From: Liolophura sinensis | Taxonomy: Eukaryota > Mollusca > Polyplacophora > Chitonida > Chitonidae | Direction of reading: 5' to 3' | NCBI RefSeq assembly: GCF_032854445.1 | Contig: NC_088300.1 | Location: 48,911,682-48,975,681, forward strand | DNA: 64,000 nucleotides | In this document: positions 17,570 through 63,555 of the stretch, one piece after another | Layout: each line of letters starts with the position of its first letter | How positions within the stretch are numbered: the stretch's first letter is position 1 | Position numbers and translations under genes: made by a program | The notes under the pieces: generated by a model | What the model was told of the DNA's origin: nothing | The model's database searches: none | Seen by the model: the letters and a program-made list of their open reading frames with translations, nothing else

Positions 17570-17801
17570 ATGATTATGGACGGATTGGATACTCTTTCAC
17601 AGGTCGCCCTGGCCAGTGACCAAATGAATTTGAGCTTCGACACCTATCACCCGCCTTCTCAGGCGCTCAGTACAACTGGATCCATGGGCCGACAACTGTT
17701 CGAGTCCGTAGAGGACACTTTAAACACACCAGTGACTACCAATTCGGAGACAACTTTCTTCGGAGCGGATACATTCGGACCTCTACCTATTACAGCCACT
17801 G
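17570..17801 (+). CDS. Egr: Egr coding exon 1
   Basis: Encodes the N-terminal 77 residues plus the first base of codon 78, starting [11 protein letters not shown]. Its donor G|GTAAGT at 17801/17802 is strong. The 5' leader probably begins around 17430, about 30 bp after the TATA box, with an initiator-like TCAGTC near 17433. The exon lacks recognisable domains, as expected for the activation region. Confidence 0.9.
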
Positions 17802-62700: not shown

Positions 62701-63555
62701 GCATTAGTGAGGAAGCAGGTACTGTATCATAGCCACAGGGTTTGTGACAGGATAGATTACTTCCACCCTGACCTTGAGACATTAGTGAGGAAGCAGGTAC
62801 TGTATCATAGCCAGAGGTGTTTGTGACAGGGCAGATTACTTCCACCCAAGCCTTGAGACATTAGTGAAGAAGCAGGTACTGTATCATAGCAGGTGTTTTA
62901 TGATAGGGGAGATATCTTCCACCCTAGCCTTGAGATATTAGTCAGAAAGCAGGTACTGTATCATAGCCACAGGGGTTTGTGACAGGATAGATTACTTCCA
63001 CCCTAGCCTTGAGACATTAGTGAGGAAGCAGGGAATGTATCATAGCCACAGGTGTTTGTGACAGGGCAGATTACTTCCACCCTAGCCTTGAAACATTAGT
63101 GAGGAATCAGGTACTGTATCATAGCCACAGGGGTTTGTGACAGGGTAGATTACTTCCACCCTAACCTAGAGGCATTAGTGAGGAAGCAGGTACTGTATTA
63201 TAGCCACAGGTGTTAATGGAAATGCTGGTTCTTTATATAAGGTTCATTTAGTGAAAATTATTGGATTAGGTGTTCATCTGATAATATTTACTGTATCAGT
63301 TAGCACTGGTCAAGATGAAGGTTGGATGTAAATTGTAAAACCTGTAAACATACGGGTAGTCTTTACTGGTTGGTTAGCCAGACCTGATCCCTCATATTAA
63401 ATCTTCAGGTTTCCTATCACGCAGAGGCTTTCAAGATATACAGTGAGCTCTCCCACCAAATGACGGACAAAGATGGCCTCTCAGATGAAGATTACAGCGC
63501 TGTGATGCAACAAAAACTGACAGACATCAAAGCCCTGTCAATCACTGTTGATTGA
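47744..63555 (+). CDS. BIN3: Bridging integrator 3, N-BAR protein; ten coding exons, two apparent single-base frameshifts
   Basis: BAR-domain protein of the amphiphysin/Rvs161 family, which binds and bends membrane and acts with actin and Cdc42 in cytokinesis and endocytosis. Coding exons: 47744-47751, 48065-48116, 48678-48718, 49489-49550, 60356-60493, 60829-60869, 60950-61010, 61213-61294, 61634-61768, 63409-63555. All ten junctions are GT-AG and phases agree. If one surplus base is discounted in exon 5 and one in exon 8, the product is 254 residues; human BIN3 is 253. Recognisable blocks in order: SAPKKSVISRTTEREVERE, LYKDMKR, DLLASALCQQD, AKIDKYQERER, ARTDYFQPSFEALVRSQ, LTDIKALSITVD. Introns 4 and 9 are filled by minisatellites, intron 4 also by a LINE. 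Intact splice sites and conserved residues argue for a live gene with base-calling errors in homopolymers, but a recent pseudogene allele is possible. Confidence 0.94.
48065..48116 (+). CDS. BIN3: BIN3 coding exon 2
   Basis: CTGTTTCAG acceptor, GTGAGT donor. Encodes NLFSRYSAPKKSVISRT, corresponding to the human GQPKKQIVPKT region preceding the BAR helices. Ends in phase 0. Confidence 0.88.
48631..48667. repeat. (TA)n microsatellite beside BIN3 exon 3
   Basis: About 18 TA units ending about 10 bp before the exon 3 acceptor, so it takes up the place of the polypyrimidine tract and branch region. Confidence 0.95.
48678..48718 (+). CDS. BIN3: BIN3 coding exon 3
   Basis: TTTTACAG acceptor, GTAAGA donor. 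Encodes TEREVEREAKKLEG, aligned with human VERDFEREYGKLQQ. A (TA)n tract ends about 10 bp before the acceptor. Confidence 0.92.
49489..49550 (+). CDS. BIN3: BIN3 coding exon 4
   Basis: GTTACAG acceptor, GTATGT donor. Encodes LEDTTKKLYKDMKRCIESCT, first BAR helix. Ends in phase 1 before the 10.8-kb intron. Confidence 0.93.
50130..50280 (+). mobile_element. SINE type A, old copy inside the decayed minisatellite edge
   Basis: GATCTGTCAGCAACCTACGA, GTTGTGGGTTTCCCCTGGAC, TATTTGTGAAATGTTCTTAA and a tail AAATAAAATAAATAA match with many differences. Confidence 0.75.
50460..50998 (+). repeat. 44-bp minisatellite, left part
   Basis: About 12 copies of a unit such as CTGACTGCCATGTACCGTAC + CTATTGAGGTTATGTAGC + CTCCTT. 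Upstream, 49790-50460 holds older, diverged units (for example GGTTTCCTCTAGACTGTTAA), so the array is most regular toward its centre. Confidence 0.95.
51003..51264 (-). other. LINE 5' segment with an antisense open frame; possible inverted 5' end
   Basis: On the minus strand this stretch reads VDAECKIDTILQSGNALNYV and onward without stop to the array junction, and does not look like array sequence. At its inner border, 51252-51284 is a near-palindrome (CTCGCCCTG-CCCACAA against its complement) spanning the ORF1 ATG. LINEs often invert their 5' end by twin priming; that is one reading. Confidence 0.4.
51265..52528 (+). pseudogene. LINE ORF1 remnant (gag-like nucleic-acid chaperone)
   Basis: The first part, 51265-51591, encodes an RNA-recognition-type region (LKLVIQGGVQPVEVYNRL...VTVATQTVKEQLL). 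The frame then changes near 51588; the second part reads KQAGHFQKDCP, the right half of a CCHC knuckle, then an Asp/Glu/Asn-rich and Ser-rich tail ending in KSRKKKKNK and TAA at 52528. Roughly 50 residues that should hold the rest of the RNA-binding region and the first knuckle cysteines seem to be missing. It ends 9 bp before ORF2. Confidence 0.85.
52538..56108 (+). pseudogene. LINE ORF2 remnant (endonuclease - reverse transcriptase - RNase H)
   Basis: Endonuclease: LQWNCRGL, LQET, GDFNAH and SDHFP at 52538-53240. An in-frame TGA follows at 53414. A frameshift lies near 53655-53668. RT: PIPKPGKDSTDPNNYRPISL, GFRKNRSTVDHLVRL, FFDLEKAYDT (motif A), QGVPQGSILS (motif B), then directly MQTIERQLQ: the segment that should hold the xxDD catalytic box (motif C) is deleted in frame near 54470. 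RNase H: TDDSK, FTAEAKAI, CSESLS, WVPGHMGIPGN; the third acidic residue is Glu where Asp is usual. A frameshift near 55945 separates the final Cys/His knuckle (FTVKHILLDCGDF), which continues to 56108. Confidence 0.93.
56270..60083 (+). repeat. 44-bp minisatellite, right part, with higher-order structure
   Basis: About 87 copies of the same 44-bp unit as left of the LINE. Rare variants recur at multiples of 44: ATTGTGG at 57217 and 58361 (1144 bp, 26 units); the CCTTACTG variant at 57725, 58825 (25 units) and 59177 (8 units). Blocks of many units have therefore been copied together. Confidence 0.95.
60356..60493 (+). CDS. BIN3: BIN3 coding exon 5, with one surplus base
   Basis: Acceptor CTAATAG at 60355, donor GTGAGT at 60494. 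The frame set by exon 4 reads ATAKAERKIP, matching human AMSKSAVKIS, then meets TAG. The next frame reads RDLLASALCQQDTELKSLVE, matching human LDLLSNPLCEQD. The shift falls at CCCC 60382-60385: one C fewer restores a single frame and the exon's exit phase. Confidence 0.88.
60829..60869 (+). CDS. BIN3: BIN3 coding exon 6
   Basis: TTTTTTCAG acceptor, GTAAGT donor. Encodes NSCCQKVVMEPTK, aligned with human VNQIQKTVIEPLKK. Confidence 0.9.
60950..61010 (+). CDS. BIN3: BIN3 coding exon 7
   Basis: TTTTGCAG acceptor, GTATGT donor. Encodes LSSIFPGVQAAIKKRQQSLQ, aligned with human FGSVFPSLNMAVKRREQALQ. Confidence 0.94.
61213..61294 (+). CDS. BIN3: BIN3 coding exon 8, with one surplus base
   Basis: TTTGATAG acceptor, GTAAGT donor. 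Frame from exon 7 reads EYNKCQAKIDKYQERER, then N-W-G-Q-C-G-stop. The next frame reads TGGNVVKRET, fitting human TGPVLAKLHQ. One base too many lies in AAA (61263-61265) or GGGGG (61268-61272). Confidence 0.88.
61634..61768 (+). CDS. BIN3: BIN3 coding exon 9
   Basis: TTTTTTCAG acceptor, donor CAG|GTACTG. 45 codons, phase 0 at both ends, including EEMPKLYEARTDYFQPSFEA, nearly the human EEMPRFYGSRLDYFQPSFES. The 3' part of this exon is the seed of the following 79-bp array. Confidence 0.96.
61769..63220 (+). repeat. 79-bp minisatellite derived from BIN3 exon 9 and its splice donor
   Basis: About 18 copies follow the exon directly. Each has an exon-like 46 bp (GCAGATTACTTCCACCCTAG... to AGGAAGCAG) and then intron-like GTACTGTATCATAGCCACAG. 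The first copy (61803 onward) is closest to the real exon (CAGCCTAGCTTTAAGGCC); later copies share CACCCTAACCTTGAGACA. Confidence 0.95.
63409..63555 (+). CDS. BIN3: BIN3 coding exon 10 (last)
   Basis: ATCTTCAG acceptor. Encodes VSYHAEAFKIYSELSHQMTD through LTDIKALSITVD and TGA at 63553-63555, aligned with the human end LSELRALSIVADD. Confidence 0.95.
   Translation, partial: VSYHAEAFKIYSELSHQMTDKDGLSDEDYSAVMQQKLTDIKALSITVD

Follow-up and report, generated by a model that had tools for sequence, protein, structure and literature searches.

The stretch of DNA analysed here, referred to as the window, comprises 64,000 nucleotides of the chiton Liolophura sinensis (C6:48911682-48975681, where C6 is contig NC_088300.1, 82,489,547 bp of a 609 Mb genome) and carries the Egr gene together with two unrelated genes, ADO and BIN3. 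The order is Egr (+ strand, 17570-20258), ADO (- strand, 45999-46733), and BIN3 (+ strand, 47744-63555), and no further host genes were seen between them in the open reading frame (ORF) lists or in a non-exhaustive coding-score scan. A preliminary description of the sequence had called the three consecutive genes, which was confirmed by gene models plus profile and protein matches on gapless sequence, and the ends of its interval, 17570..63555, coincide exactly with the Egr ATG and the BIN3 stop codon. Three genes in a row therefore stand, but the start of BIN3 was corrected to 47.7 kb, head to head with ADO. The window is free of any N and the sequence from Egr to BIN3 is thus gapless, which for this interval speaks against the misassembly raised in that description. 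The assembly was built from HiFi and Omni-C data and has 28,010 genes (PMC11068029), and the Liolophura sinensis species name has been corrected (PMC12441733). The analysis also took in flanks of 150 kb on the upstream and 100 kb on the downstream side of the window, 314 kb of C6 overall. Going upstream from Egr, NRBF2 (- strand, C6:48812953-48814945, outside the window) is the first gene recognised, the two starts being ~114 kb apart, and no other host gene was recognised in the interval between them by the same non-exhaustive scan.

Egr has two coding exons, of which the coding part of exon 1 (17570-17801, + strand) runs from the ATG to a splice donor and exon 2 (18817-20258, + strand) contains the stop codon and the C2H2 zinc fingers, of which three were counted by eye. 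The best named matches of the resulting 557-residue protein are mollusc 'early growth response' proteins. The finger stretch has one full match at 100% identity in the genome, the next best-scoring of 203 matches being 52% identical (150 of 824 candidates were scored). ADO (2-aminoethanethiol dioxygenase) is an intronless gene for a protein of 244 residues, convergent with Egr. It matched PCO_ADO at E=1e-51, a genome-wide search gave no second PCO_ADO match, and its named protein matches are mostly 2-aminoethanethiol dioxygenases.

BIN3 has ten exons, all on the + strand, with splice sites read for nine of them. Exon 1 is a candidate of only eight bases (47744..47751; ATGAGTAG|GTAAG, encoding Met-Ser-Arg). 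It is followed by exons 2-4 (48065-48116, 48678-48718, and 49489-49550), exons 5-7 (60356-60493, 60829-60869, and 60950-61010), and exons 8-10 (61213-61294, 61634-61768, and 63409-63555). The protein is 97% identical to the Liolophura sinensis bridging integrator 3-like protein, the differences arising because of a frameshift in exon 5, where the query was translated in the other frame. The remaining exon translations match the public protein when compared by eye. A second frameshift lies in exon 8. The public protein carries a LOW QUALITY flag and passes smoothly across both. The two frameshifts could reflect genuine decay or an error of the assembly. A genome search gave five BIN3 matches, all of them inside the window and representing one locus, and BIN3 as a duplicate copy was rejected since no BIN3 match was found elsewhere in the genome.

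The identification of NRBF2 relies on several searches. Two of its exons matched the MIT domain (E 2e-9 and 1.2e-5 in a profile search of the local proteins), and genome-wide the NRBF2 MIT domain, both exons included, was found at one locus only. A human NRBF2 sequence aligned in both exons, and NRBF2 accounted for five of the seven matches to solved structures with E no higher than 1 (best E=0.006).

In human, single-nucleotide polymorphism annotation gives the order ADO, EGR2, LOC107984012, NRBF2 (PMC5915097), and ADO, EGR2, NRBF2, JMJD1C, and REEP3 are listed at one place (PMC11321361). EGR3 and BIN3 are placed near each other on Hsa8, in a block with paralogues on Hsa10/5/4 (PMC3890633, section 8). 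The matching arrangements are NRBF2<- Egr-> ADO<-, as at 10q21, and Egr-> BIN3->, as at 8p21. We take human EGR2 and ADO to be convergent, EGR2 and NRBF2 to be divergent, and EGR3 and BIN3 to be transcribed in the same direction. With the human strands so taken, gene order and transcriptional orientation are conserved between chiton and human at three of three neighbours, indicating that the chiton unites in one place the neighbours found in human at 10q21 and 8p21. As NRBF2, ADO, and BIN3 have one locus each, neighbours of different vertebrate copies stand together at a single-copy locus.

Linkage in other invertebrates was sought in the best 120 of 180 ADO matches, the best 120 of 5313 Egr matches, and all 13 BIN3 matches. 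Species having entries in two lists were picked by eye, and location on the same contig was inferred from equal bp totals. In Pomacea canaliculata, Egr (C0Q70_10247) and ADO (C0Q70_10249) are two locus tags apart on contigs equal in bp. In Littorina saxatilis, Egr and ADO are both on a contig of 85,557,633 bp, whereas in Tubulanus polymorphus Egr is found with BIN3 on one of 31,900,244 bp. Linkage of Egr with ADO or BIN3 in further invertebrates, which the preliminary description had asked to be looked up, was therefore seen in three of the three species testable among the matches listed, and no counter-example was present among these matches (three named species besides the chiton). The same orthologues are hence linked in distant phyla, the cases being chiton, human, and three partial invertebrate ones.

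Vertebrate EGR1 has the SRF/CREB immediate-early promoter layout. In the chiton, the 700 bp preceding the Egr ATG contain three CArG boxes (at 16888, 16982, and 17352), two full cAMP response elements (CREs; TGACGTCA, at 16961 and 17280), and a TATA-like sequence seen by eye near 17400, and the proximal promoter was placed at 16888..17410 on the + strand. Poisson probabilities of finding three CArG boxes or two CREs in 700 bp are ~3e-5 and ~4e-5, respectively, both calculated post hoc. Across the 314 kb of C6 this is the only CArG plus CRE cluster (at least three sites within 1 kb). Egr thus has clustered CArG boxes and CREs beside a TATA promoter and, by analogy with EGR1, its promoter has the layout of an SRF/CREB immediate-early promoter. 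Full CRE palindromes are also frequent in the window as a whole, where there are six versus 0.85 expected from shuffling (about seven times as many), and in the 314 kb, where there are 19 versus 4.5 expected, 14 of the 19 being between NRBF2 and ADO. The six in the window are at 1599, 8704, 16961, 17280, 31406, and 40163, all on the Egr side of ADO. CArG enrichment across the whole locus was considered and rejected, the counts being at chance level outside the promoter.

We think it probable that the locus preserves an ancestral bilaterian block, NRBF2(-)-Egr(+)-ADO(-)-BIN3(+), the bystanders of which were divided between EGR2 and EGR3 and which was held together by Egr regulation. The two parts differ in strength. 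The block is very probably ancestral with its bystanders divided between the vertebrate copies, and it is likely that Egr regulation held it together, a view based on analogy, human expression quantitative trait locus (eQTL) listings, and a report on topologically associating domains (TADs) in echinoderms. The block would predate the vertebrate whole-genome duplications, following which the EGR2 copy would have retained NRBF2 and ADO and the EGR3 copy BIN3, the other bystanders being lost. Less securely, Egr control elements may be spread over the ~140 kb from NRBF2 to ADO/BIN3, in which case breaks between Egr and its bystanders would have been selected against. In human, variants of the EGR2-NRBF2 interval appear in eQTL listings for ADO (PMC5915097), which suggests one shared landscape, and conserved microsyntenic pairs including Egr are located inside TADs in both sea star and sea urchin (PMC13317027, Magri et al. 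2026). The preliminary description had seen in this locus the undivided ancestor of the vertebrate EGR2-ADO and EGR3-BIN3 loci. That claim is well supported and gains from the presence of NRBF2 (across a scaffold gap) and from the agreement of strands, but a chiton is a living relative rather than the ancestor. A bolder version, which we offer tentatively as a possibility somewhat on the unlikely side, is that the whole NRBF2-BIN3 interval is one activity-responsive Egr landscape from the bilaterian ancestor, with enhancers both between NRBF2 and Egr and within or past ADO and BIN3. The retained bystanders would then mark the subset of enhancers kept by each EGR copy, those of the NRBF2/ADO side by EGR2 and those of the BIN3 side by EGR3.

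Genes further along C6 were also compared. Human KDM3/JMJD1 and REEP genes are neighbours of EGR1 and EGR2. A JmjC Pfam search of the chiton genome gave 11 matches, from which search alone KDM3 was not identifiable. The C6 match at 56.5 Mb reads by eye as JMJD6, and the C6 match at 78.8 Mb, not nameable by eye, is KDM3 on three matched stretches. C6 also has a REEP gene, of REEP1-4 type by eye, and a second REEP-family match is on C8. KDM3 and REEP are ~120 kb apart (C6:78815490-78935164), which resembles the KDM3-REEP pairs of human, and ~30 Mb from Egr. Placement on the same chromosome is by itself weak evidence because C6 makes up 13.5% of the genome. Beyond NRBF2 is a RING gene (C6:48803233-48806618), three stretches of which align to human RNF103, followed by a DUF2152 gene. 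Human RNF103 is on chr2 beside KDM3A and REEP1, and the RNF103-like gene next to NRBF2 may be a hint of the paralogon's chr2 member. The downstream side of BIN3 has a C2H2 gene, a gene of RNase HII type, and a tubulin. The remaining downstream ORFs tested, three of the eight proteins in that profile search, matched no family, and neither did a read-through protein from the surroundings of the zinc-finger gene that lies past BIN3.

Several observations weigh against an ancestral block held by Egr regulation. Its ancestry rests on chiton, human, and three partial cases, among which near-adjacency was seen only in Pomacea, the Littorina and Tubulanus genes being placed on the same contig by its equal size. 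CArG boxes are not enriched over the locus (6 versus 5.4 expected in the window and 23 versus 25 in the 314 kb), and CREs are only weakly concentrated between NRBF2 and ADO (p=0.015, post hoc). A 200-N gap at C6:48884646-48884845 interrupts the interval between NRBF2 and Egr, so that their link rests on scaffolding. The second MIT exon of NRBF2 was just below the curated cut-off in the local search, albeit above it in the genome search, and the other NRBF2 family, PF08961, reached no better than E=0.053. Finally, the distance of 30 Mb between KDM3-REEP and Egr indicates that C6 was rearranged around the Egr block.

The alternative that fares best accepts that the block is ancestral and ascribes its persistence to slow neutral rearrangement instead of Egr regulation. 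Single-copy genes can remain linked by inertia and the chance-level CArG counts beyond the promoter are as expected in this case. However, the block is intact despite the extreme genome rearrangement described for chitons (PMC12005716) and despite the removal of KDM3-REEP to 30 Mb away. The listing of human EGR2-NRBF2 interval variants as ADO eQTLs (PMC5915097) and the coincidence of echinoderm Egr microsynteny with a TAD (PMC13317027) also argue for regulation, and we regard neutral retention as unlikely.

An artefact, either a false join in the scaffold (most of all between NRBF2 and Egr) or a BIN3 that is merely a stray pseudogene copy, is favoured by the 200-N gap, by the two BIN3 frameshifts and the LOW QUALITY flag of the public protein, by large tandem arrays nearby, and by the partial genome duplication reported for this species (PMC12005716). 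Yet Egr to BIN3 is gapless in an assembly made with both HiFi and Omni-C (PMC11068029), the neighbours agree with the human order, and BIN3 occurs nowhere else in the genome and retains readable splice sites at nine of ten exons, exon 1 being a candidate, all of which makes an artefact very improbable. It is equally improbable that the genes were assembled separately in the chiton line or that the vertebrate pairs are independent rearrangements for, partial as the linkage in the three other invertebrates is, Egr and ADO are two locus tags apart in Pomacea and three neighbours match human in side and strand, the chance of which by rough arithmetic is ~1e-7 for any three of 40 genes assumed to neighbour human EGR genes (~1e-11 for three named genes each at most three genes from Egr in a genome of 28,010 genes), both sums counting NRBF2, whose link spans the scaffold gap.

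The Egr-ADO intergenic region (20259..45998, 25.7 kb) is a candidate Egr regulatory landscape and holds several tandem arrays in addition to two of the CREs (31406 and 40163). The large arrays are at 33499-35147, 37370-38110, and 28586-29965, having units of 86/173 bp, 43 bp, and 32-36 bp, respectively. Directly beyond the ADO 3' end, nearly two copies of a 168-bp unit stand in tandem with a 100% match (45500-45823), which is either very recent or an assembly effect. On the other side of ADO, the head-to-head promoter interval shared with BIN3 (46734..47743) has one CArG box at 47451, the two start codons being 1,011 bp apart.

The BIN3 introns are filled by a broken non-long terminal repeat (non-LTR) retrotransposon and minisatellites. 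The retrotransposon (51584..56022, + strand) is in intron 4 and has endonuclease and reverse transcriptase plus a weak RNase H match. A 44-bp minisatellite is present in the same intron in two parts (50444-51003 and 56270-60086), and the element seems to have inserted into this minisatellite, splitting the array. A second minisatellite, of 79 bp and ~19 copies (61720-63214), has as its unit the end of BIN3 exon 9 plus the splice donor of that exon. Exact copies of the motif CAGGTACTGTA number 15 in this array, the exon 9 donor itself counted, and could form a string of decoy 5' splice sites.

The chiton locus offers a single-copy outgroup for tracing the regulatory inheritance of EGR2 and EGR3, usable as such because each of the two vertebrate copies can be set against the same undivided block. 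The block predicts the positions of mollusc Egr enhancers and which vertebrate gene deserts descend from them. Human disease intervals between ADO, EGR2, and NRBF2 give the question practical weight.

The vertebrate EGR1-4 paralogon arose by two rounds of genome duplication. The chiton locus resembles it in that the neighbours of EGR2 and EGR3 are combined there and KDM3 and REEP are on the same chromosome. It differs in that KDM3-REEP is distant in the chiton, and RNF103 beside NRBF2 may tie the block to the human chr2 member as well. In a genomic regulatory block, a target gene is found with bystander genes, and conserved non-coding elements are a defining feature. The chiton locus is like such blocks (PMC5728398) in that Egr adjoins a long interval poor in genes and has unrelated genes on its flanks. 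Membership of Egr in an ancient microsyntenic block has been published before. PMC13317027 credits the earlier identification of such pairs to Irimia et al. 2012 and Simakov et al. 2013, whose tables may already contain some of the pairs described here. The four-gene block with its strands and its EGR2/EGR3 division was not found in the literature searched, which does not show it to be unpublished, the nearest report being PMC13317027. As in ancient microsyntenic blocks generally, a developmental transcription factor is found beside unrelated genes across phyla and long-range cis-regulation is invoked, Egr being among the genes named. Whereas the text of PMC13317027 consulted gives no Egr partners, the chiton locus provides four genes, their strands, and the division between EGR2 and EGR3.

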